Assembly (NCBI GenBank): GCA_030530825.1
Contig: JAUMUF010000001.1
Coordinates: 386,757 to 450,756, forward strand
Source of the DNA: a bacterium
Lineage (GTDB): Bacteria; Patescibacteriota; Saccharimonadia; Saccharimonadales; Saccharimonadaceae
Reading direction: 5' to 3'
Length of the DNA: 64,000 nucleotides
The notes below the pieces were generated by a model. It searched no databases. It saw nothing but the letters and a program-made list of their open reading frames with translations, and was not told the DNA's origin. Shown in pieces: positions 15,930 to 61,151 of the stretch (position 1 is its first letter; every line of letters begins with the position of its first letter). Both the position numbers and the translations under genes were made by a program.

Positions 15930-16919
15930 TTAAAGGCTGGGAGAAGATTCCGGCAGATTGGAATCCATCGCTTGATGAAGTTCTTGACTTTTAATAGAAA
16001 TATTGTTTAACTCTTTAATTTTAGCGTTAAAATTGGCGATTTGCGAGTTGATTTGTTCACGATAGTCATCCAAAAATCTCGTTTTTTGAAGAAGTTTTGA
16101 CCGCTCTGCGCCGAATTCCCACTGCGAGGAAAAATCGCCATTCTTGGCTTTCTGATTAAAATCCACAATTTGGCTATTAACCGCCTCGATTTTAGCCGAG
16201 TAGTCCTGCTGGGCGGCTTCAATTTCTTTTTTAGAAATCTCGACCTCTGTTTTCAGCCGATCATAATCCTGCTCCAACTTTTCGAATTTTTCACTATATT
16301 TTTTGTGGAATTCCACCACCGCGCGACGATTATGAAAAATCTGCGAATAATGCGCCTCCAATTCGGGCGAAAGGTCAAAAAATTCCGTACCAAGAATTGA
16401 GTGAAGTTCGTTCTCGTGTTCACCAGGCTGCGTCACGGCGTAGGCGGACATTGTTTTTTCAAGTTTTGGCGTTTTAATTCGTTCGTAGTCCGCGTTAAGC
16501 AAATTTTTTAGCCGAGATTTTTCCGCTTCGGGCGTTCTAGACCATACCGCATGAAGCGCCTCGTGCGCGAGAGTTGTTTGTTTTATACCATCAAGTTCAG
16601 AATTGTCAATATCAAAAATAAAAATCTCATCCGCCTTATAGCATCCCAAAACCGATCCACCCTCAAAATTATTTTTACATTTCTGATTGAAATTTTGCCT
16701 ATTTAAAAGTGTTGGTGAAGTTGCTTTTACTATAATTTCCGATTCTGGCTGAAATTTTATGCTCGCAATCAACTCACGCATTTCATTACTTGGCACAAAA
16801 TTATTCGCCTTGACAAAATCTGAGATTTTCTGCCTAAAAACAATAGCCAAAAACCCGCCACCGATTATCACTAGCAACAAAATCCCGCTAACAATCTTCC
16901 CAAAATTCAATCTTTTCAC
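15930..16919 (-). CDS. Membrane-anchored HExxH metallopeptidase-like protein with coiled coil
   Basis: A 329-residue protein with an N-terminal membrane anchor (residues about 10-28), an extracytoplasmic domain with the zinc motif HEALH at 119-123 and a candidate third ligand in GEHENELH (166-173), and a coiled coil over residues about 200-310. Cys81 and Cys93 could form a disulfide. It looks like a secreted zinc peptidase, perhaps acting on cell-wall or surface proteins; no family name comes to mind. The start is GTG, and TATAAT (16927-16932) ends 7 nt upstream. It lies just outside the prophage-like element. Confidence 0.72.
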   Translation of the reverse strand: MKRLNFGKIVSGILLLVIIGGGFLAIVFRQKISDFVKANNFVPSNEMRELIASIKFQPESEIIVKATSPTLLNRQNFNQKCKNNFEGGSVLGCYKADEIFIFDIDNSELDGIKQTTLAHEALHAVWSRTPEAEKSRLKNLLNADYERIKTPKLEKTMSAYAVTQPGEHENELHSILGTEFFDLSPELEAHYSQIFHNRRAVVEFHKKYSEKFEKLEQDYDRLKTEVEISKKEIEAAQQDYSAKIEAVNSQIVDFNQKAKNGDFSSQWEFGAERSKLLQKTRFLDDYREQINSQIANFNAKIKELNNISIKSQELHQAMDSNLPESSPSL

Positions 16920-16976
16920 TATAATAATTATATCGCATTGTGCTTATTTTTACAATATTTTCGAAAAACCCATAAA

Positions 16977-17024
16977 TTAAACGAACCCTATGAAGAGTTT
17001 TATCATATCGTCAAAGAAACTCAT
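16977..17024 (-). CDS. Candidate 15-residue hydrophobic micropeptide
   Basis: The short frame MSFFDDMIKLFIGFV begins 10 nt after a strong AAAGGAG site and ends with TAA. It follows the 343-residue gene in the same direction with 18 nt between. The peptide is hydrophobic with two acidic and one basic residue and could be an amphipathic helix. Evidence is only the ribosome site and position; it could be chance. Confidence 0.4.
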   Translation of the reverse strand: MSFFDDMIKLFIGFV

Positions 17025-17042
17025 CTCTCTCCTTTCAAATAA

Positions 17043-18074
17043 TTAAAACATCACCGGCTTATCGTCATCATCTTCGCTCTTCTTGCGAGAATTTACGCTT
17101 GAAGTATTAGCAAAGTATTTTTGAGCCTGCTGAGCAGTTAGGCTTGGGCCTTGATTCTGCGCCGCTTGGCTTGCGAGATCGACTTTAGAGAGGCCATCAG
17201 CCTTATATTCTGGGAGTTTATCGAGTTTTATGTCAGGGGTTTTCATATTCTTGAAGGAGTTGACCACCGCGTCCAAATTGGCTTGACCGCCAATCTTGCT
17301 TCGATAGTTGTTCTCTTCATTTTGGAATTTCTCGTCCGCCGCCTGATGCTGTTCTTTCTTCCAAGTGTTGAGTTCGTTGTTTTCATCCTCATACTCTTTA
17401 CGCAAGTTAGCGCGAGCAGAAGAGATATTAGACACTTGATCATTGTAGTCGTCTGTAATCTCAGAACTTTGTTTATTAGCAAGATCCGCTGTGGCAATCG
17501 CACCCATTTGCGCCGCACTTGAGTTGCCTGCGCCATACATACCAATTTGAGTATTGAGGCCTTGGAGCATATTTTGACTGTCGTTCTGGATTTGCCCATA
17601 CGCACGCGAGCGTTGTCGATCCAATTTGGATTGTTCGCTGTCAAGGTTCCTGAACGCATTGTCGCGTTGATTTGTTAATTTGTTGAATGAGTTGTTGTAT
17701 TTCTCGTCGATGAGTGATTTTGTAGCAGCCTTTCTGCCAGGTAGGCTATCAAGAAGCCCCTGATAGAATTTCTGCTGACGAAGGTCTTCTGCGGATGGAC
17801 CGCTTGAGGCGCCGCCACTATAATGTAAGCCAGTTGAGCTTGGTGGTTGAGATACTTTTGCTGCATCATTCTTATTCCAATCATCAACTCTTCTATAAAA
17901 TTTGCTATTTATTCCACCCTTTTCTGCATATAGACCCACCCCGTCTTGATGATTAAATTTGCCCAAATCTTGCGTTGGTGCATCATTACCTTTTATATAT
18001 AGATTACCATTTTGACCAATCCAATAGACTCCTTTTCTACCATCAGACCCAACCTTACCAAAATTTATTGACAT
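17043..18074 (-). CDS. Unknown phage-element protein, glutamine-rich helical
   Basis: A 343-residue protein without signal peptide. Residues 1-65 look like a beta-rich module with several GxxG turns, 77-87 carry PPSSTGLHYSG, and about 95-290 are helical and rich in Q, N, D and K with coiled-coil character; the end is SRKKSEDDDDKPVMF. A virion or injected internal protein is possible because it ends the late part of the element, but I do not recognise a family. The ATG follows AAAGGAG, which is buried in a hairpin (18076-18105). Confidence 0.65.
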   Translation of the reverse strand: MSINFGKVGSDGRKGVYWIGQNGNLYIKGNDAPTQDLGKFNHQDGVGLYAEKGGINSKFYRRVDDWNKNDAAKVSQPPSSTGLHYSGGASSGPSAEDLRQQKFYQGLLDSLPGRKAATKSLIDEKYNNSFNKLTNQRDNAFRNLDSEQSKLDRQRSRAYGQIQNDSQNMLQGLNTQIGMYGAGNSSAAQMGAIATADLANKQSSEITDDYNDQVSNISSARANLRKEYEDENNELNTWKKEQHQAADEKFQNEENNYRSKIGGQANLDAVVNSFKNMKTPDIKLDKLPEYKADGLSKVDLASQAAQNQGPSLTAQQAQKYFANTSSVNSRKKSEDDDDKPVMF

Positions 18075-18075
18075 A

Positions 18076-18105
18076 TAAAAATCTCCTTTATGAGTTAAAG
18101 GAGAT
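18076..18105 (-). promoter_or_regulatory. Terminator-like hairpin that buries the ribosome site of the 343-residue gene
   Basis: ATCTCCTTTA (18105-18096) pairs perfectly over 10 bp with TAAAGGAGAT (18090-18081), loop ACTCA, followed by TTTTTAT and then the ATG at 18074. The 3-prime arm contains the only Shine-Dalgarno sequence, so the stem could stop transcription or block translation. Confidence 0.75.
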
Positions 18106-18126
18106 GATGTTTGGATATTTAATATT

Positions 18127-18711
18127 TTATTTAGACTGACAGAAGTGAAGTACGGCTATAGTGGAGGGGTCATTTTTTCTGCTTGGACCCTGATCAAAAA
18201 TCTCAGCGAATCCTATTTTTGAGTATCGGGGGTCTATCATTGCTTCATAATGAGATTTAGAATTCCTCCAACTATCAACTCTATCCTTAGCACTAACACT
18301 TACTGACCCTCGTGCTATATTTTCACCAATATACACACACTCATTGGGCGACAGATATGTAATATATTCGTAACCGTGTTTTTTAGTCTTTGGATTTACA
18401 TGATCATAGTAATTATACTGAACCATATCTTGTGCTTTAAGCAGCGCACTAGCGTTTAGTTTATCGTCCAGAATTACCGAATCAACTCCTGCGTCTACCC
18501 TAATAAGCGCATTAACCTCTTTGAGGACCTCTTCGGGGGTTGGCCTTATTGCTATTGACCTATTCCTGAACTCCTCTAAGAACTCTTTTTCTCTGTTTAG
18601 TTTTGAGATTTCAGAATTAAGCTCTTTAATATAACTATTCAGACTTACAAAACCAATAGCCCCACCCCCAAGCAAAGTAAGAACGACAATTATAGTAACT
18701 ATCTTCTTCAT
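18127..18711 (-). CDS. Secreted/anchored CAP (SCP/PR-1) domain protein
   Basis: A 194-residue protein. An N-terminal membrane segment (residues about 4-25) and a short coiled coil precede a CAP domain from about residue 60: LNASALLKAQDMV, YYDHVNP, YIGENIARG, VDSWRNSKSHYEAMIDPRY and a final AVLHFC follow the family order, with His and Glu of the usual cavity. Bacterial CAP proteins are secreted with mostly unknown roles. It has its own promoter. On this element it may be a cell-surface or lysogenic-conversion factor (inference). Confidence 0.85.
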   Translation of the reverse strand: MKKIVTIIVVLTLLGGGAIGFVSLNSYIKELNSEISKLNREKEFLEEFRNRSIAIRPTPEEVLKEVNALIRVDAGVDSVILDDKLNASALLKAQDMVQYNYYDHVNPKTKKHGYEYITYLSPNECVYIGENIARGSVSVSAKDRVDSWRNSKSHYEAMIDPRYSKIGFAEIFDQGPSRKNDPSTIAVLHFCQSK

Positions 18712-18720
18712 AATAACCCT

Positions 18721-18749
18721 ATTTTAACATAAATCTGCCAAGAAATCAA
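18721..18749 (-). promoter_or_regulatory. Promoter of the CAP gene
   Basis: TTGATT (18744-18749), 17 bp, TAAAAT (18721-18726) with extended TGT. It ends 9 nt before the ATG, so the leader is 2-3 nt. Confidence 0.65.
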
Positions 18750-18752
18750 TCG

Positions 18753-19211
18753 CTACAGCCATTCATCAACACCGCCGTGTCCAGAGCAGGTGCCTCGCCC
18801 CGTTGAGTATGAGTATGTTCCGTCTGCGCAAATGGCGGTAGGTTCATCCTCGAATTGCCCACTATAGTATAAGCCTGATGAAGATGGCGGTGATACGGGG
18901 CTTTTGTATCTATATGTGTAGACATTATATACGGGTGGCTCAGCTTTCTCTATAATCGTTTCTGATATTTTAGACGAGCCTCTTCTACATACTCGACTTT
19001 CCCCAGACTTGCCATCTTTCACTAGTTCTCGATAAATCTTGCCGTCTTCATCTCTATTTGTAGTATCTTTTTCTCCGGCTTTTATTTCCGTTGCGTCTGT
19101 TAATATGATTGATTCATTTTCACAGTTCTCAACAAACAGATAATCAACGATGGGCCATACGGGCATCGAAAAGACTACCACCAAGAATAACCGCATCAAG
19201 AATTTTTTCAT
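18753..19211 (-). CDS. Secreted DUF3761-type protein
   Basis: A 152-residue protein with an N-terminal signal or anchor (residues about 5-25) and the C-terminal DUF3761 pattern: ICADGTYSYS, then GRGTCSGHGGVDEWL, at 127-152. Two cysteines near the end probably pair outside the cell. Residues 108-118 are PPSSSGLYYSG, nearly the same as in the 343-residue protein two genes on. DUF3761 is found in secreted proteins of unknown role. TATAAT ends 6 nt before the ATG. Confidence 0.8.
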   Translation of the reverse strand: MKKFLMRLFLVVVFSMPVWPIVDYLFVENCENESIILTDATEIKAGEKDTTNRDEDGKIYRELVKDGKSGESRVCRRGSSKISETIIEKAEPPVYNVYTYRYKSPVSPPSSSGLYYSGQFEDEPTAICADGTYSYSTGRGTCSGHGGVDEWL

Positions 19212-19217
19212 TCTTTA

Positions 19218-19246
19218 ATTATAGACCTACCCCATCTAAAAATCAA
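19218..19246 (-). promoter_or_regulatory. Promoter of the DUF3761 gene, leaderless arrangement
   Basis: TTGATT (19241-19246), 17 bp, TATAAT (19218-19223), ending 6 nt before the ATG at 19211. Confidence 0.65.
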
Positions 19247-19315
19247 CCCCAAACATCATCTCCAAATTGTTAATTTACTTCATTATTTCCACCCTACTTT
19301 CAATTTTTTCTCACA

Positions 19316-19342
19316 TAAAAACCTCCCGTCGCCTCCCGGGAG
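19316..19342 (-). terminator. Second terminator after the candidate small RNA
   Basis: CTCCCG (19342-19337) pairs with CGGGAG (19328-19323), followed on the minus strand by GTTTTTATG. Together with the preceding hairpin it forms a tandem terminator. Confidence 0.75.
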
Positions 19343-19345
19343 ATA

Positions 19346-19439
19346 TAAAAAAGAAGCCTTACCAGAAAGCGACAATATTAAAAAACCTTAATATTATCAC
19401 GGTCTGGCAGGCTTTATGACTCTGCGTAACCTCGTTTAT
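19346..19439 (-). ncRNA. Candidate small structured RNA of the phage element
   Basis: About 94 nt with its own promoter (19446-19474) and a T6 tract at the end (19346-19353). The closing stem pairs AAGCCT/CCAGA (19414-19403) with TCTGG/AGGCTT (19366-19354), and an inner 8-bp hairpin pairs AATATTAA with TTAATATT (19395-19374, loop of 6). No open frame fits. It starts directly after the stop of the 102-residue gene. It could also be only an elaborate terminator of the terminase transcript. Confidence 0.6.
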
Positions 19440-19445
19440 GTTAAT

Positions 19446-19474
19446 ATTTTAGCATAAATGCGATAATTATTCAA
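19446..19474 (-). promoter_or_regulatory. Promoter of the candidate small RNA
   Basis: TTGAAT (19469-19474), 17 bp, TAAAAT (19446-19451) with extended TGC. Confidence 0.6.
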
Positions 19475-19477
19475 TAT

Positions 19478-19786
19478 CTATGAAATATTTTCTTGGTGTT
19501 CGTTCGTAACAAACATTCTAGTGATTCTACCGCTTTTAGATTCGAGCCTAATATTGATCGTTTCTTTCTCTCTGGCAGATTTGTTGAGATCAAGTATTTT
19601 TTGCGTAATCGCCAATAATACTTGCTGATTATCTTCTTGTGGAAAATTAATAATTGTCTGTCGCTTAAGGTTAACTCCTACAATCTCTCCATTGTTCTTT
19701 ACGATCTCAACACCCACCTTTCCGCGACTCGTTTCAGTTTCTGCGTTAACTAATTTAGATAGAAACCCTGGCATATTTTCAAACAT
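19478..19786 (-). CDS. Unknown small phage-element protein
   Basis: A 102-residue soluble, charged protein that follows the terminase large subunit with 13 nt between and a strong AAGGAGGTGAG site. Alternating hydrophobic residues suggest a small alpha/beta fold. I do not recognise a family. In complete phages this place is normally taken by the portal gene, which is absent. Confidence 0.7.
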   Translation of the reverse strand: MFENMPGFLSKLVNAETETSRGKVGVEIVKNNGEIVGVNLKRQTIINFPQEDNQQVLLAITQKILDLNKSAREKETINIRLESKSGRITRMFVTNEHQENIS

Positions 19787-19799
19787 CTCTCACCTCCTT

Positions 19800-21095
19800 T
19801 TAATAATATCCATCATTGAATAAATCTTCAGAATAATCATAATCCTCATCTGTCACACTATAACCTTCGTAACCGATAGCCAGCGTTAAACTCTGGATAG
19901 CGTATCTAAATGCGTCCGCACCGTTGCTCGCCCAATCGTGGAGCGGTTTGAGCGAAAATATTTGATTTTTCTCATCATATTTGTAGCGATATGACCACAA
20001 ACATTTTAGTCCTCTTTCACATTTATTTTTATCAAAGAAACATGACGACAACTTCATTCTTGCCTCGGAGATACCGTCGGCAATTCGATTGCGCTTCAAA
20101 ATTACAATATTATTCAGCCCTAATTTCCTGAGCAGATCCGCCCGAGTCGCCTCTTCGCCCCAAGTTTGCGTCCCGCCATCATGAGGCAAGAAATGCGCGC
20201 CATAGTTATAAGGCTTCTCTTTGATGATCTTTGCGTAATGCGCTGGCGTTTCTTGGCTCATTTCGTAGTAATCAATAAAGTAGGTTTGTCCGCCTTTAAT
20301 CTGGTAAAACCAAATAGCCGTAGTGTCTTGCCTGCCCAAATCCCACGCAGTGTAGACTTTACGGCTTTCGTCGTGTGGAATAATCCCCACCTGATCTCCC
20401 CTCTCGATTTCGGATAATTTCTTAGCATAAATCGCACCATCTTTGCTTGTCTTAAATTCTCCTAACCAAATATGCCGATAAGCCTCATAGTCGGCTTGTT
20501 TCATCTTTTCTCTTTCATCTTTAAGTGGACCTGGGAGTTGGCCAATTCTCTCGAGATCATGACTGTCAATCTTGGCTATAACATCACGATCGGTCTTTCG
20601 TTCCACAATTTCAGTCCAGACAGCGTCTTTCGGCGTTTCTGGGTTAAAAGTCCAGATCAATTGAGAGCCTTCTTTACGTATTGTTGGTACAAGAATTTGA
20701 ATACTCTCAAGACTTACGCTATGAGCCTCTTCAACCCAGCAAATATCTACACCTTCGAAAGATTTAATTTTGCTGACATTGTCTCGAAGTCCAACAAATA
20801 AAAATTCTGATCCAGTCAACTTATTTCTAATAGAGTCGCGAGTTATTTCGTATTCGGAGAAATTATACTTCCTAATAATATCACTCAGCAATTTATGGAC
20901 AGAATCTTTAATAGAACCCTGTATTTCGCGTGTACACAAAATTCGAAGTTTCTTGCTTCTTGCCCGATTTAATAGCGACCAGCCCACAGCAAAACTCTTT
21001 CCCCCACCACGACCGCCGTAATAAACGATATTTCGCCACTTCTCTTCAAATAAATGCTCAAATTTATAGTGAAGATTGACAGACACTTTATTCAT
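19800..21095 (-). CDS. terL: Phage terminase large subunit
   Basis: A 431-residue TerL of the PBSX/Terminase_3 type. The ATPase domain has Walker A GGRGGGKSF (27-35), Walker B CWVEEAH (119-125) and WTFNPE. The nuclease domain has Asp252 (WDLGRQD), Asp306 (LPHDGG) and a late GADAFRY. It packages DNA into an empty capsid. I chose the ATG at 21095, not the TTG at 21107; it overlaps the terS stop by 8 nt. All catalytic residues look intact, which argues against advanced decay. Confidence 0.93.
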   Translation of the reverse strand: MNKVSVNLHYKFEHLFEEKWRNIVYYGGRGGGKSFAVGWSLLNRARSKKLRILCTREIQGSIKDSVHKLLSDIIRKYNFSEYEITRDSIRNKLTGSEFLFVGLRDNVSKIKSFEGVDICWVEEAHSVSLESIQILVPTIRKEGSQLIWTFNPETPKDAVWTEIVERKTDRDVIAKIDSHDLERIGQLPGPLKDEREKMKQADYEAYRHIWLGEFKTSKDGAIYAKKLSEIERGDQVGIIPHDESRKVYTAWDLGRQDTTAIWFYQIKGGQTYFIDYYEMSQETPAHYAKIIKEKPYNYGAHFLPHDGGTQTWGEEATRADLLRKLGLNNIVILKRNRIADGISEARMKLSSCFFDKNKCERGLKCLWSYRYKYDEKNQIFSLKPLHDWASNGADAFRYAIQSLTLAIGYEGYSVTDEDYDYSEDLFNDGYY

Positions 21096-21558
21096 CTCGC
21101 CCCACAAAGCCAGTTAAACTGACGGTTAATTTTTGCCCTTCAATAGAGAGGTCAAGTTTCTTTTGGCGTTCAGCGATTCGCTGTTTAAGGGTGTTGTATT
21201 CCTTGATCGCCCCGAGTTTCGTTTTAAAATCCGCATCTTGAATGATCAATTTTGCGAGCTGTTTGTCAACATACTGATCATTCAATCCACTCTCTTCAAA
21301 AATTTCATCAATTCTCTTCAAGATGTTAGGTTTTGTTAATAATTTTGAAGCCTCAACTCTGGCGGTCAAGTAAGCGCCTCGCTTGCTCAAATCCACATTA
21401 TAGGCCTCAATATAACTCTGCGTGCCGTTGCCGAAGATCTCTCGATCGCTGGCGTAAATTTGGCAAAATAACTCCTGCTTGGGAGTCAATCCACTTTTTG
21501 ATTTATTAGAAATCTTAGCCTTGGCTTTAGGTTTTGGTTTCTTGGCTTTTTCTGACAA
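21088..21558 (-). CDS. terS: Phage terminase small subunit
   Basis: A 156-residue protein. A basic N-terminal tail of Lys/Pro residues is followed by the Terminase_2 helix-turn-helix (LTPKQELFCQIYASD, NGTQSYIEAY, then a second helical pair) and a C-terminal oligomerisation helix. It recognises the packaging site. The start is a TTG at 21558 with AAAGGGTGA upstream; no ATG fits. Its leader of about 80 nt has two small hairpins, including GCGCC/GGCGC right before the ribosome site. Confidence 0.88.
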   Translation of the reverse strand: MSEKAKKPKPKAKAKISNKSKSGLTPKQELFCQIYASDREIFGNGTQSYIEAYNVDLSKRGAYLTARVEASKLLTKPNILKRIDEIFEESGLNDQYVDKQLAKLIIQDADFKTKLGAIKEYNTLKQRIAERQKKLDLSIEGQKLTVSLTGFVGRDE

Positions 21559-21643
21559 TTCTTCACCCTTTCCGCGCCAAAAGAAAAAGGCGCTACAACA
21601 ACTTTAATTTAACTTAAAGCCGGTAGCCGCCCACAATGATTTT

Positions 21644-21672
21644 ATTATAGCACGAGCATGTTAAAAAGTCAA
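21644..21672 (-). promoter_or_regulatory. Strong promoter of the terminase operon
   Basis: TTGACT (21667-21672), 17 bp, TATAAT (21644-21649) with extended TGC: the best consensus match in the element. It makes a structured leader of about 80 nt before terS. Confidence 0.8.
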
Positions 21673-21689
21673 TAGTACGATAGAACCAG

Positions 21690-21715
21690 AAAAACACTCT
21701 CTAGCACGGGGTGTT
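21690..21715 (-). terminator. Terminator between the small-gene pair and the terminase operon
   Basis: AACACTC pairs with GGGTGTT (21693-21699 with 21709-21715), with T-runs on both sides; it can act on either strand. Confidence 0.75.
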
Positions 21716-21716
21716 T

Positions 21717-22088
21717 TTATTTATTATTAGTGAGTAGCGATGTTATAACTGCAGTTATTATCGCAGTAATTACAAGAGATACAATCCATCCAATAAATCC
21801 CGATATTTTCTTTAAAGTCATTTTTATATCGTGCCGATCGCTTTCCTGTATTAAGCTTTTAATACTCTTTCGAACCTTATCATCCTTTTTTATTATATCC
21901 ACAAAAGCATCCTTAAAGGTTTTTTCTATCTTTTTTGAATCGGAGATGGATTTAGTAAAAAATTCCACAAATTTTTCATTAGTAGAAATTTTTTCCTCAA
22001 TTTCAGCAACCCTACCTTCAAGATCGGTTTGTGTCTGAATTAAATCCTGAGGATTAAAGTCTGACTTTCTAGTAGGATTAGCCGGCAT
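21717..22088 (-). CDS. Unknown tail-anchored coiled-coil membrane protein
   Basis: A 123-residue protein. Residues about 15-95 are helical and highly charged, and about 97-118 are one hydrophobic segment (IVSLVITAIITAVITSLL) at the very C-terminus, which gives a tail-anchored topology. The start overlaps the preceding stop by one base (TAATG). It forms a closed two-gene unit with that gene, between a promoter and a terminator. A toxin or superinfection-exclusion role is possible from layout only. Confidence 0.65.
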   Translation of the reverse strand: MPANPTRKSDFNPQDLIQTQTDLEGRVAEIEEKISTNEKFVEFFTKSISDSKKIEKTFKDAFVDIIKKDDKVRKSIKSLIQESDRHDIKMTLKKISGFIGWIVSLVITAIITAVITSLLTNNK

Positions 22089-22342
22089 TATTTAGACTTC
22101 TCCTTGAGTAGCGAATTTGACGGTTTGATATACTGCTTATCCGCCCCATCTTCAACAACAATAGATTTATTCGATGCCGTGGTAAGTAGTGCTAGAGAAA
22201 ATCTTAGAGCGGACTCCTCATCCTTAAATCCGTAAGACTCTACAATTGCTTTTAATGCGTCTAGGTCGCCGTTCTCAATCAAAATGGTTCTACCTAAAAC
22301 ATCATTATTATTCTTTTCTTCGCTAATTTTCTTAATCGCCAT
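22088..22342 (-). CDS. Unknown small soluble protein, first gene of a two-gene unit
   Basis: An 84-residue protein with a short helical core (GDLDALKAIVESYGF, EESALRFSLALL) resembling the size and layout of small DNA-binding or antitoxin-like proteins; no motif proves this. TATAAT ends 8 nt before the ATG, so the message is expected to be leaderless, as repressor messages in some lysogens are. It is coupled to the tail-anchored protein. Confidence 0.6.
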   Translation of the reverse strand: MAIKKISEEKNNNDVLGRTILIENGDLDALKAIVESYGFKDEESALRFSLALLTTASNKSIVVEDGADKQYIKPSNSLLKEKSK

Positions 22343-22350
22343 ATATAATA

Positions 22351-22379
22351 ATTATACACTATTGGCACTGCCTTGTCTA
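22351..22379 (-). promoter_or_regulatory. Promoter of the two-gene unit, leaderless arrangement
   Basis: TAGACA (22374-22379), 17 bp, TATAAT (22351-22356), ending 8 nt before the ATG at 22342. Confidence 0.7.
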
Positions 22380-22381
22380 TA

Positions 22382-22837
22382 TTATTTATTGTGTTTATGA
22401 TTGATGATATTTGGCTTATAACACATCACCCCATGCTTGGCATACATCTCATTGATTTTGTCGTCATCGTCAAAAGCGAAGAGAATGTTTTTAAAACCTA
22501 TATACTTTTTGATGAGGTCTTCTTTGACTTCGTGAGCTGGTCTCCAGTCGTTCGAGGGTCGCATAAACAGTTTGCAATATCTAGCAAGCAACTTCTCGTC
22601 TAACCATTTTCTGGTGGCGTGATAGCAGCTCTCGTTTCTCCCAGTAATGAAGATGATTTCCTCACTAACTTCTTCTAAATCACTAAAAATGCGATAGCCT
22701 TTTTCTATAACCTCATCTTTCCAAACCTCATCGTAAGAATAAAACTTATCATAGTCTTTCTTGTCACCCTGTATATATTTGAGGCGGTGTGAGCAGTCTG
22801 CTAATACTCCGTCAATGTCAAAAATTATGTATTTCAT
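22382..22837 (-). CDS. HAD-superfamily phosphatase, polynucleotide 3-prime-phosphatase-like
   Basis: A 151-residue HAD protein: DIDGVLAD (nucleophile and acid Asp) at the N-terminus, FITGRNE (motif II Thr) in the middle, a conserved Lys and FAFDDDDKI (motif IV). The set and length match the phosphatase half of phage polynucleotide kinase (T4 PseT-like) without the kinase domain. It could repair cut RNA or DNA ends; other small HAD substrates are possible. Its start overlaps the stop of the 54-residue gene. Confidence 0.8.
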   Translation of the reverse strand: MKYIIFDIDGVLADCSHRLKYIQGDKKDYDKFYSYDEVWKDEVIEKGYRIFSDLEEVSEEIIFITGRNESCYHATRKWLDEKLLARYCKLFMRPSNDWRPAHEVKEDLIKKYIGFKNILFAFDDDDKINEMYAKHGVMCYKPNIINHKHNK

Positions 22838-22998
22838 TTTTTCTTCTGTCCTTTATATCTAAAGTCTTTGCCCATTGTTTTAACAAATGTTTTAGCCAAA
22901 TTCTTTGTCGAAAACTGATATTTATTTTTAACAATACCATTTTCGTATTCGACTACGATGTAAGCATAGTTAGAGTTAAGACATTCTATATTGCTCAT
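22834..22998 (-). CDS. Small 54-residue phage-element protein
   Basis: A frame of 54 codons with GGAGGAG just before its ATG. The stop overlaps the HAD gene start (ATGA) and the start overlaps the previous gene's stop. The product is basic, ends in KGQKKK and contains an aromatic strand (YAYIVVEYENG). No family is recognised; the tight overlap on both sides is the main evidence. Confidence 0.65.
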   Translation of the reverse strand: MSNIECLNSNYAYIVVEYENGIVKNKYQFSTKNLAKTFVKTMGKDFRYKGQKKK

Positions 22999-23189
22999 AA
23001 TCTCCTCCATATATGTTCATCAATCTGTTCAAACTTATCTAATGCGTATATCAATCCACCTTCTGGGAACATTGTCGGGAAGAGTGGTTTAATATTTACA
23101 AAACGACTGTCGTTATTGCTCTTCTGAAATTTTAAGTTATCTATAATCAGATAATCGCCGTTCGGAATTTCATATGCTTTTTTAATCAT
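22995..23189 (-). CDS. Small 64-residue phage-element protein
   Basis: A 64-residue protein, probably a small beta-rich domain (GDYLIIDNLKF, GGLIYALDKF). It overlaps the next start by ATGA and lies 2 nt after the preceding gene. No function can be assigned. Confidence 0.6.
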   Translation of the reverse strand: MIKKAYEIPNGDYLIIDNLKFQKSNNDSRFVNIKPLFPTMFPEGGLIYALDKFEQIDEHIWRRL

Positions 23190-23191
23190 CT

Positions 23192-23521
23192 TTATTTATC
23201 CTTGATATTAGATACAACTCTTTCCTTAATCTTCTCTTCAAGTTTAGCGAGCCTATCTTTTAGTTTCCTCTCTGTATTTAAGTATTCACCAATTATCCCT
23301 ATATTAATGCCGCCGAAACCATCAACGAACCAATATTTTTTTAATTCTTTAGTTTCTTCAAACCAATCGTCGAGGTTCTCTAATTTTTCTATAACTATTT
23401 TGTGGCGGTAGCCCAACCACTCTTCTGGGGCTAAAACTTCACGACCATCATCGTCCATCATTTTGAAAATGTCGCCTGCTTGGGCAAAAGGTAGGTCTTT
23501 TAATAACTTATATCTTTTCAC
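23192..23521 (-). CDS. Unknown phage-element protein, KRYKLLKDLPFAQAG type
   Basis: A 109-residue protein. I chose the GTG at 23521 because AAGGGAG precedes it. The N-terminus (YKLLKDLPFAQAGDIF, then WLGYRHK) has the look of a small barrel domain found in many phage and Patescibacteria hypothetical proteins; the C-terminus is a charged helix (KLEEKIKERV). It follows directly after the structured RNA region. Confidence 0.65.
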   Translation of the reverse strand: MKRYKLLKDLPFAQAGDIFKMMDDDGREVLAPEEWLGYRHKIVIEKLENLDDWFEETKELKKYWFVDGFGGINIGIIGEYLNTERKLKDRLAKLEEKIKERVVSNIKDK

Positions 23522-23533
23522 AGTTTCTCCCTT

Positions 23534-23687
23534 TCTCAATAATCCAACCCCACAAGGGACGACCAACTTTTCCTATTATTAAGCCACCACGCTTAAATAT
23601 ATTATTAGTTAATTATTGTTGGTCCTCCCCTCGAGATTTTTTGAGATTCGGGGGCTTCTCGCCCCTTGTGGGGTTGGATTATTAAAA
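23534..23687 (-). ncRNA. Intergenic RNA structure closed by a long terminal stem
   Basis: On the minus strand a 21-bp perfect inverted repeat (23683-23663 with 23558-23538), extended to 25 bp by two A-U and two G-U pairs, encloses about 100 nt with three inner hairpins: GGGGC/GCCCC, GGACCAAC/GTTGGTC-TCC and TTAAGC/GCTTAA. The outer pairs are G-U only on this strand, which supports RNA. It separates the VRR-NUC gene, whose stop it includes, from the 109-residue gene. It could be an excised RNA, an RNase III site or a small inverted-repeat element. Confidence 0.7.
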
Positions 23688-24086
23688 TTCAACTTTCTTT
23701 TCCTTCGGCTCGCCAAGATAAGCGTGAATTAGCATAATAGCCTCATCAAATCCGCACGCAAAACTCGCGCTATAGCCTTTATTTCGAAGTTTTTCCAGCA
23801 TTTTTGCTTGCTCTTCGATATGCTCATTTTTCAAAAGCGTCACGCCATCTTTTCGATAAATATTGGTGGCTTTGATTTCGAGAAAAAGCCCGCTCTTGCT
23901 ACGCTTTGGTTCTGCGATAAACAAATCCGGATAAGCCCGCGAACTCTGAAATTTCTTGTGCTTGGCGGCTTGCCCGGGCGTCATCTTCATACCGCTTGAA
24001 AAGTCGGTGCGAAAGATAACGTCGGGGTAATTCCGGCGCAGATAATCGCAAATCCGTAGGTGTAAAATTTCTTCTGGTTTTTTCAT
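23682..24086 (-). CDS. VRR-NUC-type nuclease
   Basis: A 134-residue PD-(D/E)xK nuclease: YPDLF, then LEIKAT as catalytic D...ExK, and a C-terminal EEQAKMLEKLRNKGYSASFA helix-strand with the family's Q-x-x-x-L. Phage VRR-NUC proteins are small stand-alone nucleases that cut branched or flapped DNA. It lies in the replication/recombination part with SSB and ERF. Key residues appear intact. Confidence 0.88.
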   Translation of the reverse strand: MKKPEEILHLRICDYLRRNYPDVIFRTDFSSGMKMTPGQAAKHKKFQSSRAYPDLFIAEPKRSKSGLFLEIKATNIYRKDGVTLLKNEHIEEQAKMLEKLRNKGYSASFACGFDEAIMLIHAYLGEPKEKKVEF

Positions 24087-24087
24087 T

Positions 24088-24333
24088 TTAATTTACTTTA
24101 ACTTCGATGTTTTGGCTGTTCGAAGTTTCTTCAATCTTGATTTTGGCTGGGCCGCGGCGTGATTTTTGTCCGCCAATTCTACCAGCGACAACGGCCAACT
24201 CTCGGTTGGCGGCAAATCCGCCAGTGATGCCATTTTTGCCACCGATGCGGCCAATTCTGGCGTAAAAATCTTCGCCATGAATTGCTTTATTAGTTGCGGC
24301 GGCTTTTAGGCCACCTGCTTTAGCTCCTGCCAT
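24088..24333 (-). CDS. Small glycine-rich KGG-like phage protein
   Basis: An 81-residue protein with repeated GG-containing helices (IGRIGGKNGITGG, AGRIGGQKSRRG), like stress-related KGG repeats and short proteins common in siphophages. Basic, probably nucleic-acid or protein binding; function unknown. Its start overlaps the preceding gene by 14 nt. Confidence 0.7.
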   Translation of the reverse strand: MAGAKAGGLKAAATNKAIHGEDFYARIGRIGGKNGITGGFAANRELAVVAGRIGGQKSRRGPAKIKIEETSNSQNIEVKVN

Positions 24334-24574
24334 TTTCCTCCTTTACTGTGTTATCTATCATCACCACCGCCAGTTCAATGTTGGCAGGGTCGATATTTTG
24401 CTTTATTAGCCACGAGCGGGCTTGCTCTGCTTGGTCTAAATTTTTATAAATCTTACTGTATTTAACGCCGTTTGGGCTAACCCAATAAATGGCGACTTGA
24501 GTGTTTTTGAGCGACATCTTGCTTAACTTTCTCCTTAAAATTGCTTTTTCTCGTTTAGAAATCTTGCGTTTCAT
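24320..24574 (-). CDS. Unknown small basic phage-element protein
   Basis: An 84-residue protein. The first 20 residues are strongly basic (KRKISKREKAILRRKL), followed by a compact alpha/beta part. It is coupled to ssb by one-base overlap. No family is recognised. Confidence 0.6.
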   Translation of the reverse strand: MKRKISKREKAILRRKLSKMSLKNTQVAIYWVSPNGVKYSKIYKNLDQAEQARSWLIKQNIDPANIELAVVMIDNTVKEENGRS

Positions 24575-24978
24575 TAGAATGGAATGTCGCTTAGGTCGAT
24601 CGAATCGCCTGAAATTGGTGAATTATCGTTTTTAGGTTCGGCTTTGTGGCCATCAGCCACAAAACTAAATTCTTCAACCACAATGTCCAGCGCGGAGCGA
24701 TTTTTGCCGGTGTCTTTGTCCTGCCAAATTCGCTGATTGAGGCGACCGCTGACCAGAATTTGCCGACCTTTGGTAAAATATTTGCTGATTGTTTCGCCAG
24801 TTTTACCCCACGCCACGCAGTCGATAAAGGCGGTTTCGGTCTGTTTTTCGCCAGATTGAGCGGTGTAGTTTCGATTGACTGCCACCGTGAAATTGGCAAG
24901 ATTTGCGCCGTTTGGCGTAGTTTTGAGTTCTGGGTCGCGGGTGAGATTTCCGAGCAGAATAACTTTACTGAATGACAT
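24574..24978 (-). CDS. ssb: Single-stranded DNA-binding protein of the element
   Basis: A 134-residue SSB: an OB fold from VILLGNLTRDPELK to about residue 105, and the acidic partner-binding tail ending DLSDIPF. It coats single-stranded DNA and recruits recombination proteins. AAGGAG precedes the ATG. Placed between the ERF region and the nuclease, it belongs to a recombination module. Confidence 0.95.
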   Translation of the reverse strand: MSFSKVILLGNLTRDPELKTTPNGANLANFTVAVNRNYTAQSGEKQTETAFIDCVAWGKTGETISKYFTKGRQILVSGRLNQRIWQDKDTGKNRSALDIVVEEFSFVADGHKAEPKNDNSPISGDSIDLSDIPF

Positions 24979-24987
24979 TTTTTCTCC

Positions 24988-25815
24988 TTAAATTGTTCGT
25001 TCTTCGGTTAATTTTACGCCGGGGATTTCGAGTTCGGCGATGTTTTTATTCTTGGCAAAATCGCGAATCTTGGCGATGTCTGGCGTGCAGAAAATTCGTG
25101 GCACGAGGTCTGGGTTGGTGATTTCGATGACCAATTTTGTGCGGGCGCCAAATCTTGGTGCGGCGTTGGTTTTTGCGGCGACTTTTTGGGCTTTTTCAAG
25201 TTCAAGCGCGCGGGCGATCTGCTCTTCTTTTTGCTTGATCTCCAGTTGAACGCGTTCTGCTTCGGTTTTCATAATTCGCTGAATGGTGAGCAGTTGCTCT
25301 TCGAAGTTGGCAAGCAGGCGAGCCTTGGCCGCAAGCAAAATTGGCGTTTTTTGATCTGCTGGCGCAATGCCGTCAAAGTGGGCAATGGCGAGAGTTTTGG
25401 CTTCTTCCAAAGTTTCTTCGTCGATAATTTTTGGCGCCAGAGCCACGGTTGCCGCTTCCCAATCTTTGGCGATTTGGTTGAGGCGGGCTTCTTCGGCTTT
25501 TCGTTTTTCTTCGAGTTCTTGCTCATAAGTAAGCATTTTGCTTCGAACAATTTCATCCGCGTCTTTGGCGTCCGCCACGATTTCTCGCTCCAAATCCATT
25601 GCTTGTTTTTTGATTTGGTCGAGTTGGCGGGTGAAGTCGAGACGCTTGCCAGCGACATCTTTGGTGTAAGCGGCGATTTGCTTCTTTAATGCCTTGGCTT
25701 CTTTTACGCCAGCCTCGCCCTCGATGGTGAGGGCTTGGGCGTTATCTTTGAGGTTTTTCGAAGTTAGTCTGAGTTCCGCCTCAGTTTCGAACGGTTTGGT
25801 GATTTGATTATCCAT
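24988..25815 (-). CDS. Phage coiled-coil protein of the recombination module
   Basis: A 275-residue protein. Most of it is a highly charged coiled coil (about 15-215), followed by a C-terminal domain of about 55 residues with VPRIFCTPDIAKI and IPGVKL. This layout is common in phage proteins encoded next to RecT or ERF annealing proteins; the role is unknown, perhaps an exonuclease partner. It is coupled to the ERF gene by a one-base overlap. Confidence 0.75.
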   Translation of the reverse strand: MDNQITKPFETEAELRLTSKNLKDNAQALTIEGEAGVKEAKALKKQIAAYTKDVAGKRLDFTRQLDQIKKQAMDLEREIVADAKDADEIVRSKMLTYEQELEEKRKAEEARLNQIAKDWEAATVALAPKIIDEETLEEAKTLAIAHFDGIAPADQKTPILLAAKARLLANFEEQLLTIQRIMKTEAERVQLEIKQKEEQIARALELEKAQKVAAKTNAAPRFGARTKLVIEITNPDLVPRIFCTPDIAKIRDFAKNKNIAELEIPGVKLTEERTI

Positions 25816-26459
25816 TAGTTGGCTCCTTTTTCAATTTGTAGAATTATTTCATCCACTTCCGCCTGAGATTTAATTTTGTCGAGACGGATTTGGATTTTGC
25901 CCGGCGAAATTCCTTTGTCCAGCAAGAAATCCGCAATTTTTTGGCGATCTTCTGGGTTTATTTGGAATTTGGTGGGCTTTGGGGCTGGCGCAGGTTTTGC
26001 GGCTTTTTTCTCGTGAGTATTGGTGGCGTCGGCGTCCTTGGTGTCATCGATCAAAAAGAGACCATTCAAGGCGTATTTTCGCGCATAAGATGAGGCCGAG
26101 CCGGTGATCTGGCTCGCGTCCATACCTTTTTTGTTAAATTCTTCGCGAGCAAAAGCCGAAGCTTCGATTGTATGTTCGCCATCCGTTAACTTGGCGGTGG
26201 CTTTAACATAAAACCTTTCGCCAAAAACCTCATCACCTCCGGTCTTTGAACTTGCGCCACTGCCCAACACAATAATTTCATCACTGATGGTCAAGGTTAA
26301 ATTGTTTTCAACCAGTAGCGGTTTGACTGCTTCCAAAATATCTTCACACGAGCGGTAATTGTAGCTACCGAATTTGTTGCGTTGGTTTTTTGGTGCTTTC
26401 AATTTCGAAATAATTTGGCTGAGTTTTTGACTTAAATCTTTACTAATTTTTGGTTCCAT
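25815..26459 (-). CDS. erf: ERF-family single-strand annealing protein
   Basis: A 214-residue ERF protein: YNYRSCEDILEAVKPLL near residues 29-45, SASSYARKYALNGLFLIDD and DAD near 120-145, then a Pro/Lys linker and a small helical C-terminal domain. ERF proteins anneal complementary strands and help circularise or recombine phage genomes. The ATG is preceded by AAGGAGTCAGAT; nearly the same leader precedes the gene at 26783. Confidence 0.92.
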   Translation of the reverse strand: MEPKISKDLSQKLSQIISKLKAPKNQRNKFGSYNYRSCEDILEAVKPLLVENNLTLTISDEIIVLGSGASSKTGGDEVFGERFYVKATAKLTDGEHTIEASAFAREEFNKKGMDASQITGSASSYARKYALNGLFLIDDTKDADATNTHEKKAAKPAPAPKPTKFQINPEDRQKIADFLLDKGISPGKIQIRLDKIKSQAEVDEIILQIEKGAN

Positions 26460-26482
26460 ATCTGACTCCTTGTTTCTTAAAA

Positions 26483-26569
26483 TTAAAACGGCACTTCTTC
26501 AAATTTGCCTGTAAAAATATTAGTTCGAAAAATTATTTCACTTGGTATGTATTTAACTTGAATTTTCAT
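26483..26569 (-). CDS. Candidate 28-residue small protein
   Basis: A frame of 28 codons whose ATG lies just after the stop of the 70-residue gene, with AAAGGA at the right distance. It is basic with an amphipathic pattern (MKIQVKYIPSEIIF). Evidence is position and ribosome site only. Confidence 0.4.
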   Translation of the reverse strand: MKIQVKYIPSEIIFRTNIFTGKFEEVPF

Positions 26570-26570
26570 A

Positions 26571-26783
26571 TTAAAATCCTTTGCTCCAATATTCGTGATA
26601 TGCTTCAATGCTGGCAGGTTCTTCTTGGTCGAAAAGTCCGCTGCTGTCGGCGTATTCGTTGAGAAATCCACTGACGGCGTCTTCATCAAAATTTACGAAG
26701 TATTCGCCATCTTCAAACTGAATCGTGGCAAGGCCTTCATCAAACATAAATTTACAAAAATTGGTGAGTATTTGTTGTTCCAT
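26571..26783 (-). CDS. Small acidic phage-element protein
   Basis: A 70-residue, strongly acidic protein with many aromatic residues, preceded by AAGGAGTCAGAA. The acidity could indicate DNA mimicry or an inhibitor of a host nuclease, as small acidic phage proteins often are; this is conjecture. No family is recognised. Confidence 0.55.
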   Translation of the reverse strand: MEQQILTNFCKFMFDEGLATIQFEDGEYFVNFDEDAVSGFLNEYADSSGLFDQEEPASIEAYHEYWSKGF

Positions 26784-26797
26784 TTCTGACTCCTTGA

Positions 26798-27241
26798 TTA
26801 TCTAAATTTTAAGTAAGCCCCTGAGTTGTATGCGCTCCACGCGCGGTATCCTTGACTTCGCCAGATTTTGTAGGCGATCTGGATGTTTTGCGCAGGGTTG
26901 AAAAGCATTTGGGCGGGGTAGCTGTGAATGCTGTTGATCTGGAATAATCCGCGGTCAACGGTGCCATCTCGGTTGAGGCCGGTGTTGTCGGCGAGCGGGT
27001 TACAGCCGGATTCGGCGCGCATAATGGCGAGCATTGTTGGCGTATCCCACGGGTATTTTTCGACTTCAGATCGAAACTCTTCACACCGCCCGTAACTCCT
27101 GTGAACTCGCGAGATTTGGGGCGAGGGCGCAGGCTTTTTCTCCGTTAGAGCCGGCGCTTGGGGTTGGGGCGCAGTTTCGATTTTAGGCGAAGGTTTTGGC
27201 GTGGAATCCGCAACCTTTGGGCTTACTTTTGACTTAAATTT
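26798..27241 (-). CDS. Lytic transglycosylase/lysozyme-like domain, entered by -1 frameshift
   Basis: The frame is open from 27265 down to the stop at 26798, but no ATG, GTG or TTG occurs before 27034. The domain has the catalytic Glu in MRAESGCNP, then GLFQIN, IQIAYKIW and WSAYNSG. The ATG at 27034 would remove the first helix (WDTPTMLAIM begins before it). Upstream in the same frame lies a Pro/Lys linker. A -1 shift at AAATTTA (27241-27235) joins it to the membrane-anchor gene, giving about 241 residues: anchor, linker, catalytic domain. A plain frameshift mutation is the alternative. Confidence 0.7.
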   Translation of the reverse strand, partial: KFKSKVSPKVADSTPKPSPKIETAPQPQAPALTEKKPAPSPQISRVHRSYGRCEEFRSEVEKYPWDTPTMLAIMRAESGCNPLADNTGLNRDGTVDRGLFQINSIHSYPAQMLFNPAQNIQIAYKIWRSQGYRAWSAYNSGAYLKFR

Positions 27242-27253
27242 CGAACTTGCTCC
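27190..27253 (-). promoter_or_regulatory. Candidate programmed -1 ribosomal frameshift site
   Basis: The heptamer A AAT TTA (27241-27235) is in the correct phase, three sense codons before the zero-frame TAA. An internal GGAG lies 9 nt upstream and a stem AAGGTT/AACCTT (27217-27212 with 27195-27190, with GCG/CGC inside) starts 17 nt downstream. Confidence 0.65.
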
Positions 27254-27522
27254 GAGACTTTTTGGTTAAAATCTTGGTTGATTCTCTTCTGATGCTCTGC
27301 GCCAAGGTAGAAGCCGAGGGCGAGAATTGCGGCAATTGCGATAATGATCATTGCGAGATTGCCAAAGAATCGGTTAAAGTCAAAATTTTTAATCTTATTG
27401 ATAGTTTTTGGTGTTTTCATATTTTCTCCTTTTTGTGTTTTAATTGGTTCGACGATTTCGATTTTCTCATTTTTGATTTCTTCAAACTTTAGTTCGAAGT
27501 CGTCTTCTGATATTTTCTTCAT
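27223..27522 (-). CDS. Small membrane-anchor protein, zero-frame product of the split lytic gene
   Basis: A 99-residue protein with one transmembrane helix (about residues 55-77) and a charged end. The ATG at 27522 has AAAAGGAAA; a second in-frame ATG at 27420 has an even better site (AAGGAGAAAAT) and would give 65 residues. Alone it would be only a membrane segment; read through the frameshift it would anchor the lysozyme-like domain. It is the first gene of the early operon, directly after a 24-bp hairpin. Confidence 0.7.
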   Translation of the reverse strand: MKKISEDDFELKFEEIKNEKIEIVEPIKTQKGENMKTPKTINKIKNFDFNRFFGNLAMIIIAIAAILALGFYLGAEHQKRINQDFNQKVSEQVRNLSQK

Positions 27523-27535
27523 AAAATTTCCTTTT

Positions 27536-27594
27536 CGAGAGGCTCATTTCGACCGATAGCGGGTGGACAACTACCGACCGAAATGAACCCCTCG
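27536..27594 (-). promoter_or_regulatory. 24-bp leader hairpin of the early phage operon
   Basis: On the minus strand 27594-27571 pairs with 27559-27536 over 24 bp with no mismatch and five G-U pairs; loop TTGTCCACCCG. On the plus strand the five would be A-C mismatches, so pairing is at RNA level. The ribosome site of the first gene follows at once. Confidence 0.8.
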
Positions 27595-27762
27595 ATTGAA
27601 GCAATCTTCTTATCTGTCTGACCTCTTATAAATTACTGATTAGGCGACTTTGGGAAGGTTGCTTGGTTTGATATAATGCCTGATTGTTAAGGTGTGTGTT
27701 TTCTTTGGTTTCACTTATCCGCAGGGGCGACTATCTACAAAATACTCACCTCAGTTGGATAA
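27595..27762. other. Gene-free stretch between tRNA-Gly and the phage element
   Basis: No convincing frame. The plus strand has an extended -10 (TGATATAAT, 27669-27677) with a poor -35. AGGTG (27690-27694) can pair with CACCT (27747-27751) and TTATCC (27715-27720) with GGATAA (27757-27762); the two helices interleave as in a pseudoknot. The early promoter must lie here or upstream, but I see no clear one. Confidence 0.4.
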
Positions 27763-27802
27763 ACAAAATACGACACGCCTTGCAGCGCGTGCCGTATTTT
27801 GT
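27763..27802 (-). repeat. 16-bp inverted repeat
   Basis: ACAAAATACG/CACGC pairs with GCGTG/CGTATTTTGT. On the minus strand the one odd pair is G-U and the stem is continuous. It could be a second terminator after tRNA-Gly. Confidence 0.6.
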
Positions 27803-27805
27803 ATA

Positions 27806-27847
27806 AAAGAAAAAGCCACCTGCAAGGTAAATCCTTGTAGATGGCTT
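27806..27847 (-). terminator. Terminator of tRNA-Gly
   Basis: A 15-bp stem with one mismatch and one G-U pair, CAAGG/CCTTG at the loop and AAGCCA/TGGCTT at the base, followed on the minus strand by TTTCTTTT. Confidence 0.75.
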
Positions 27848-27862
27848 GTTTAATTCTACATG

Positions 27863-27938
27863 TGGTGCGGGTTAGGAGACTCTAACTCCTGGCCTCTTCC
27901 ATGGCAAGGAAGCGCTCTAACAACTGAGCTAAACCCGC
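27863..27938 (-). tRNA. tRNA-Gly (anticodon GCC)
   Basis: Acceptor GCGGGTT/AACCCGC, D-arm GCTC/GAGC, anticodon stem CTTCC/GGAAG with loop TTGCCAT, T-arm AGGAG/CTCCT and an encoded CCA. It reads GGC and GGU. The D-loop is AGTTGTTA and the T-loop TTAGAGT: position 19 is U and 56 is A, replacing the near-universal G19-C56 tertiary pair by U-A. It lies beside the phage element, a usual integration target. Confidence 0.95.
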
Positions 27939-27997
27939 GTATGTTTTTATTCTATCAAATTATTCCTTGCGCGTCAAGCATTTTTTTAAAAATCCTC

Positions 27998-28026
27998 TCG
28001 AAATCTCGCCAAAAATCCTGTATAAT
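27998..28026 (+). promoter_or_regulatory. Promoter of the HNH nuclease gene, leaderless arrangement
   Basis: TCGAAA (27998-28003), 17 bp, TATAAT (28021-28026), ending 7 nt before the ATG at 28034. Confidence 0.6.
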
Positions 28027-28033
28027 AAGGCTT

Positions 28034-28714
28034 ATGGATAAAGTTTTTCGAAGGCGCAGATTAGTTTCGCTTATTGTCGCTGGAATTGTGGCAATTGCCG
28101 GGATTGTTTTTAACGAAAATTTCTACCAAAATAAAGTAAAGACCGAGCCTAATTCTGCCGCTTCGAAAGAAATTTCTTCAGTCAAAACAGACTTAGAAAG
28201 TCTCGAAGTTAAAGGTCGCGCACCCAAGACTGGCTATTCACGCAAGCAATTTGGCGACGGCTGGCAAAAAGACGCGAGCGGCTGCGACACACGCAATCGA
28301 ATCTTAAAACGCGATCTAAAAAACACAACCGAAAACTCAAAGTGCCAAATCTTAACAGGTATCCTCAATGACCCCTACACCGGCCAAGAAATTCATTTTG
28401 AAAGAAATAAAAACGCAGCAGCGGTCCAAATCGACCACGTCGTGGCGCTCAGCGATGCCTGGCAAAAAGGCGCACAAAATCTGGAATTTTCGAGAAGAAT
28501 TGAACTTGCCAACGACCCACTCAACCTTTTGGCCTCAGAAGGTGATGCCAACCAGAAAAAGGGAGACAGCGATGCCGCAACTTGGCTTCCGCCCAACAAG
28601 AATTTCCGTTGCCAATATGTTAAGCGACAAATTTCAGTTAAGAAAAAATATTCTCTCTGGGTGACCTTGTCGGAAAAATCCGCCCTATCATCCGTGCTGG
28701 AGACTTGCGCGTGA
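28034..28714 (+). CDS. Membrane-anchored or secreted HNH endonuclease (DUF1524/GmrSD-C type)
   Basis: A 226-residue protein. Residues about 8-28 form an N-terminal signal anchor; the nuclease domain has the core IDHVVALSDAW (133-143, Asp134 and His135), LANDPLNLLA (158-167) and NQKKGD, with WLPP and paired cysteines typical of the secreted DUF1524 family. The ATG at 28034 lies 7 nt after a TATAAT box; the longer frame runs into the tRNA and is not used. An extracellular nuclease could prepare DNA for ComEC uptake or feed nucleotide salvage (inference). Its stop overlaps the next start (GTGA). Confidence 0.88.
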   Translation: MDKVFRRRRLVSLIVAGIVAIAGIVFNENFYQNKVKTEPNSAASKEISSVKTDLESLEVKGRAPKTGYSRKQFGDGWQKDASGCDTRNRILKRDLKNTTENSKCQILTGILNDPYTGQEIHFERNKNAAAVQIDHVVALSDAWQKGAQNLEFSRRIELANDPLNLLASEGDANQKKGDSDAATWLPPNKNFRCQYVKRQISVKKKYSLWVTLSEKSALSSVLETCA

Positions 28715-60437: not shown

Positions 60438-61151
60438 TTATTTTGAGCGGTTTTTATAAGATTTTATTGCTGCGCGAGCCGCTTCTTGCTGAGCAATCTG
60501 CTTGCTTGGACCCTCACCCTCGCCCATTTTCTTATCCCCAACAAACGCACCGACTGTAAAAATCTTCTCGTGGTCTGGGCCAACTTCACCCAAAACTCGA
60601 TAGACGGGCGTAAAACCATCCCTACCTTGGGAGATCTCCTGGAGATAAGATTTAGGATCGCGCCAAGATTCTTCTTCCAAGATCTGCGGCAATGTTGAAA
60701 GAATGTTGTCTTCAATGTATTTTTTGGCTGCTGTGTAGCCTTGATCAAGGTAGATTGCGCCAGTTGTAGCCTCAAAAGCGTTGGCGAGAATCGCCGCACG
60801 AGCCCTTACGGAGCCTTGCTTTTCACCGCGCGACATTCTTATAAGTTTTTCATAGCCCAAGCGCTCACCGGCCGCAGAAATGCTCTCCGTCCTCACTAAA
60901 GCACTCCGCCAAGCGGTCAAGATTCCTTCTGGCTCTTTATAATTAGAAAAAAGATAATCCGTTACCACGAGTTCAAGCACGGCGTCACCTAAGAACTCAA
61001 GACGCTCATTGTGCTCGCTGGCAGATTTCTTGTGTTCATTGAGATAACTGCGGTGCGTTAGGGCCGTCACCAACAACTGAATATCGTTAAAATCATAGCC
61101 AAGTTTTTCTTTAGCCCAATCGTGATAAGGTGTTAGTAAAATTCCACTCAT
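60438..61151 (-). CDS. rnc: Ribonuclease III
   Basis: A 237-residue RNase III: signature NERLEFLGDAVLE at 48-60, a later acidic catalytic pair (FEATTGAIYLD) and a C-terminal double-stranded-RNA-binding domain. It processes rRNA and cuts long RNA duplexes; the 24-25-bp stems of the phage element are of suitable length. The start overlaps the NUDIX gene stop by one base. Confidence 0.96.
   Translation of the reverse strand: MSGILLTPYHDWAKEKLGYDFNDIQLLVTALTHRSYLNEHKKSASEHNERLEFLGDAVLELVVTDYLFSNYKEPEGILTAWRSALVRTESISAAGERLGYEKLIRMSRGEKQGSVRARAAILANAFEATTGAIYLDQGYTAAKKYIEDNILSTLPQILEEESWRDPKSYLQEISQGRDGFTPVYRVLGEVGPDHEKIFTVGAFVGDKKMGEGEGPSKQIAQQEAARAAIKSYKNRSK

Follow-up and report, generated by a model that had tools for sequence, protein, structure and literature searches.

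A long RNA stem between two genes of a prophage-derived operon in a Saccharimonadaceae genome: a candidate mRNA processing or stability element

Introduction

Why does an operon of phage genes carry, in the gap between two of its protein genes, a stem of at least 25 base pairs? The locus lies on the minus strand of a 64-kb window (the whole stretch of DNA that was analysed) from a member of the Saccharimonadaceae, and its initial annotation offered several answers: an RNA excised by RNase III, a ribozyme-like or protein-binding RNA, or a short inverted-repeat element. Little work has addressed how RNA is processed in such ultra-small bacteria and in the phages that infect them.

The minimum duplex length for RNase III is about 22 nt, and a stabilising hairpin can remain at the 5′ or 3′ end that it creates (PMC5371410). 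We analysed the geometry, statistics, gene context and relatives of the element to weigh these answers against each other.

Results

An inserted block of phage genes

The genome amounts to 687 kb in three contigs, compared to 0.5-1.1 Mb in its relatives. A block of phage genes runs along the minus strand from about 17000 to 27800, within an island of about 11 kb (16919-28196). These genes encode a lysozyme-like protein, an ERF annealing protein, an exonuclease-like protein, a single-stranded DNA-binding protein (SSB), a KGG-type small protein, a VRR-NUC-like nuclease, several small proteins, a polynucleotide-kinase-type phosphatase and the small and large terminase subunits. The genes that flank the island on this chromosome (a 329-aa gene at 15930-16919 and an HNH/GmrSD_C gene at 27860-28714) adjoin each other in four genomes of the same genus, and we therefore consider the block to be an insertion. 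Since none of the profiled island genes was recognised as an integrase, portal or capsid gene, the island may represent a satellite or what is left of a prophage. PADLOC gave no defence-gene match beside the element.

Two further features of the island were observed. A tRNA-Gly(GCC) gene (27863-27938) sits at its edge, while the same tRNA is found elsewhere on the relatives' chromosomes; the gene may have travelled with the island, or a chromosomal rearrangement may have taken place. A 39-nt direct repeat, 82% identical, spans the beginnings of two adjacent phage genes (26446-26484 and 26770-26808).

The element fills the gap between two genes

The element spans the gap from the stop codon of the nuclease gene to the Shine-Dalgarno sequence (SD) of the next gene (Table 1). 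Its annotated position between two genes, with a stop codon included, is thus correct, the stop codon being at 23682-23684. The upstream gene matches PHROG 824 (1.9e-13) and PHROG 5702, Holliday junction resolvase (3.4e-7). It has no Pfam match, so the name VRR-NUC is given by resemblance. For the downstream gene, the start is probably the GTG at 23521 and not the listed TTG at 23566, because its aligned relatives begin invariantly with MKRYKLLKDL. With this start, the element is wholly intergenic except for the upstream stop codon. In the predicted fold the stop codon is fully paired, and the SD of the downstream gene (AAGGGAG) has a mean unpaired probability of 0.54.

We considered and rejected an intrinsic terminator: there is no U-tract, the stem being followed by AAGGGAG on the minus strand and by AAAATTCAAC on the plus strand, and the element is absent from the terminator list.

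Table 1. Features of the element and its surroundings, in window coordinates
Feature	Position	Strand	Basis or remarks
Structured intergenic element	23534..23687	minus	154 nt; fold z and stem length
P1 (closing stem) 5′ arm	23659..23687	minus	holds the UAA stop of the upstream gene
P1 3′ arm	23534..23562	minus	ends immediately 5′ of the SD of the next gene
Inner arm	23561..23624	minus	7-bp stem GACCAAC/GUUGGUC around 6-bp hairpin UUAAGC-GUGGUG-GCUUAA (23579-23596)
Switchable G/C region	23627..23665	minus	computed pairing of two states
Shine-Dalgarno region AAGGGAGAA	23525..23533	minus	sequence; directly 3′ of the stem
Upstream gene, VRR-NUC/Holliday-junction-resolvase-like nuclease	23682..24086	minus	PHROG matches
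Downstream gene, MKRYKLLKDL family of phage proteins	23192..23521	minus	GTG start, 109 aa; relatives L172, L173, L293, L294
Second long stem, operon leader	27535..27595	minus	stem scan; 26 bp, 9-nt loop
Host RNase III gene, candidate processing enzyme	60459..61112	minus	TIGR02191 E 5.2e-68, 227.1 bits vs cut-off 166.25

The closing stem is the longest in the window

The closing stem, P1, had been described as 21 bp of perfect terminal pairing, lengthened outward by two A-U and two G-U pairs that are valid on the transcribed strand only. Both parts of this description are borne out: 23538-23558 pairs with 23663-23683, and the outward pairs on the minus strand are U-A, U-G, U-A and U-G. The arm pair 23538-23562 / 23659-23683 is 25 nt long on each side and 96% complementary. 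Inward, up to four more pairs (G-U, C-G, G-C and A-U) can be added, although the innermost ones face competition from pairing in the interior. P1 on the minus strand accordingly measures 25-29 bp, its extended form reaching 27-29 contiguous pairs, and lies beyond the double-strand minimum of RNase III given above, on the minus strand between genes.

The minus-strand fold of the whole element has an energy of -68.2 kcal/mol (z -8.2), which none of 200 shuffles equalled. In a scan allowing G-U pairs, with the same rule applied to both strands, P1 is the longest stem of the window. The longest such stem is 16-22 bp in 12 dinucleotide shuffles of the window and 22 bp in a further 200 kb of this genome. 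The observation of P1 is thereby confirmed and strengthened.

A second long stem and the polarity of mismatches

The only other outlier in the two-strand scan is the stem in the operon leader (fold z -9.7), which is found directly 5′ of the SD of the operon's first gene (27223-27522). Both long stems stop 0-2 nt short of an SD.

The two stems share a strand polarity. Every departure from perfect complementarity is a G-U pair when read on the transcribed strand (3/3 in P1, 6/6 in the leader stem), and none is A-C. Under a strand-neutral expectation, each transition would give G-U or A-C with equal chance, and nine out of nine has a probability of 1/512, or 1/128 without the two that were found through stem extension. 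As all deviations are G-U on the transcribed strand, this polarity, which comprises few events, favours selection on RNA rather than on a DNA repeat.

The interior is weakly structured and has two predicted states

Three hairpins had been placed inside P1. They are present, but two of the three helices are nested, and the interior is better read as one interrupted arm and one short hairpin. Pair probabilities in the inner arm are 0.75-1.0. Taken alone, columns 31-130 of the element fold with a z of -1.9, which puts most of the interior close to chance. When the interior is shuffled inside a fixed outer stem, 5 of 500 shuffles reach an equally good fold (z -3.0). We therefore regard the hairpins of the interior, only weakly better than chance, as weak evidence.

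The claim of two alternative states involving GGGGC and GCCCC holds in silico. GGGGC (23661-23665) either pairs with GCCCC (23651-23655) or continues the closing stem into the 3′ arm; one of these two states of the G/C region contains a CCCC/GGGG hairpin. The two states are populated about 0.50/0.50, with best structures at -69.0 and -68.7 kcal/mol.

Searches return the element alone

DNA and covariance-model searches of the genome itself, 5 genomes of the genus, 294 of the order and 379 of the phylum returned only the element. Its arms have no other copy in their own genome, where the element is single-copy. Among viral contigs, the arm pattern matched 51 in IMG/VR, each with a single arm only and hence attributed to chance, and inverted-pair arm patterns matched none in IMG/VR or GTDB. 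An 18-mer from the inner hairpin gave two IMG/VR matches lacking the arms, about the chance expectation. Distant blastn searches of phage and plasmid records produced just short chance matches.

Syntenic phage contigs lack the element as a whole. The best of them, L172, encodes the nuclease (47%), the KGG-type protein (72%) and the downstream protein (41%). There the order is nuclease, two genes, KGG-type protein and downstream protein; the last two overlap, and the nuclease gene has no stem after it. The longest stem 3′ of 25 nuclease homologues or 5′ of four homologues of the downstream gene is 14 bp. A 25-bp stem on contig L250 differs in sequence and in context and was set aside. Based on these searches and on the syntenic contigs, none of which yielded a second element, we regard the element as apparently lineage-specific among the sequences searched.

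Known RNA classes gave no match either. Rfam 15 at gathering cut-offs contains nothing for the element, and at E<=5 there are only sub-threshold chance matches to miRNA and CRISPR-repeat families; the single Rfam match within the window is a tRNA. A retron-type RNA was rejected, as no reverse transcriptase is present among the profiled island genes, and so was an rRNA intervening sequence, the element being located between two protein genes and not inside an rRNA gene.

Other observations were made in the homologous contigs. In L251 (8001-8825) the homologue of the KGG-type gene (window 24088-24333) appears split, with residues 1-37 and 37-64 about 630 bp apart; the gap may be an intron or another insertion. 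The protein at L294:3357-4001, next to a homologue of the downstream gene, has a C-terminus which by eye resembles the variable target proteins of diversity-generating retroelements. Finally, one and the same 17-bp stem is found shortly 5′ of nuclease homologues in the five viral contigs L068 (1353-1412), L075, L084, L086 and L107.

Discussion

Tentatively, and at somewhat short of even confidence, we propose that the element is a lineage-specific intercistronic mRNA processing or stability element of a prophage-derived operon, putatively cut by RNase III. Among the readings initially offered, the RNA reading fits best and RNase III is the likely enzyme, while neither a ribozyme or known RNA class nor a transposable repeat finds support. 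RNase III is the candidate because the stem is longer than the 22-nt minimum, the host encodes the enzyme, and every deviation is a G-U pair on the transcribed strand.

In the mechanism that we envisage, the element would be cotranscribed with the operon, and its minus-strand RNA would form a helix of 25-29 bp closing a small multi-branched loop. RNase III would cut one strand of this helix or both, and the nuclease message would thereby be parted from those downstream of it. The paired ends that remain may then retard decay or make the downstream ribosome-binding site accessible. Cuts in both strands would release an internal RNA of about 100 nt, which would probably be degraded, as are rRNA intervening sequences.

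Processing is the best-supported reading in view of the long stem, its G-U polarity, the two stems abutting SDs, the lack of a U-tract, the RNase III gene and the precedents in other systems. Against it, ribosomes terminating at the UAA would open the stem at its base, and a long stem alone is no proof of RNase III cleavage. The island may also be a decaying prophage in which the element is now without effect.

An unlikely, if credible, alternative is that the element acts on translation or decay without being cleaved, by protecting the 3′ end of the upstream message or the 5′ end of the downstream one, or by promoting reinitiation, in which case the 154 nt would be folded away and the stop codon of the upstream gene brought close to the SD of the downstream one. 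The stop codon in the stem base, the SD right after the other arm and the recurrence of this stem-then-SD geometry at the leader stem all agree with such a role. Nonetheless, so long a stem would be hard to shield from RNase III in a cell that has the enzyme; moreover, a 25-bp helix is more than reinitiation would require, and no operon gene lies ahead of the leader stem for it to be coupled to. We hold it improbable that a stand-alone functional RNA (regulatory, protein-binding or a decoy) is released, with the G/C junction switching between isoenergetic states. The multi-branched interior, its two evenly populated states and its modest excess over shuffles when the stem is fixed suggest such an RNA, but most of the interior lies near chance, Rfam has no match and the covariance model finds no homologue in the phylum genomes. 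A long shot that combines cleavage with such a function is that the excised multi-branched core, with its bistable G/C junction, acts in trans, for example on a host protein or defence component; the leader stem would follow the same processing route, and the core would be a new structured RNA.

A MITE-like non-autonomous transposable element inserted between the genes is also improbable: terminal inverted repeats of 21-25 bp, absence from syntenic relatives and a non-coding interior with stops in all frames are what it would leave, yet no copy occurs elsewhere in the genome or in the genus, order and phylum samples, and the arm patterns used found no inverted pair in IMG/VR or GTDB. The flank is a palindromic AATAAT, so any TA duplication is a trivial outcome of the palindrome and uninformative on target-site duplication. 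The one-sided G-U deviations and the coincidence of the element's ends with a stop codon and an SD also speak against a MITE. That the element serves the phage replication module as a cruciform, replication origin or single-strand initiation site is very improbable; its neighbours encode an SSB, an ERF annealing protein and a nuclease, which suits this role, but the arms deviate by G-U on the transcribed strand and not by A-C, and a second such stem stands in the operon leader.

For the processing reading that we prefer, three known systems offer comparison. R1.1, one of the early-region RNase III sites of phage T7, is located between genes 1.0 and 1.1; it measures about 60 nt and contains an asymmetric internal loop (PMC6121014). 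Our element resembles it in that a stem forms on the transcribed strand between genes of a phage operon, and differs in being 154 nt long and multi-branched with 25-29 contiguous pairs; cleavage here is predicted. The intervening sequence of Coxiella burnetii 23S rRNA, 428 nt with a 28-bp terminal stem, is excised by RNase III without ligation (PMC4990558). It too is an insert closed by a long terminal stem, whereas the element studied here lies between protein genes of a phage operon, is shorter (154 vs 428 nt) and has no ORF, and its excision is putative. In the leaders of phage lambda cIII and E. coli adhE, the ribosome-binding site is under the control of RNA structure and of RNase III (PMC5371410). 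As in those leaders, a long stem stands beside the SD; here, in contrast, the SDs are predicted to be partly unpaired and not sequestered. By analogy the element may work like known phage RNase III sites, a class of which it is a candidate member.

If the element is a neutral remnant, it has little significance. If it is not, two strand-polarised stems abutting SDs would suggest that RNase III divides polycistronic messages here, as it does in T7 and lambda.
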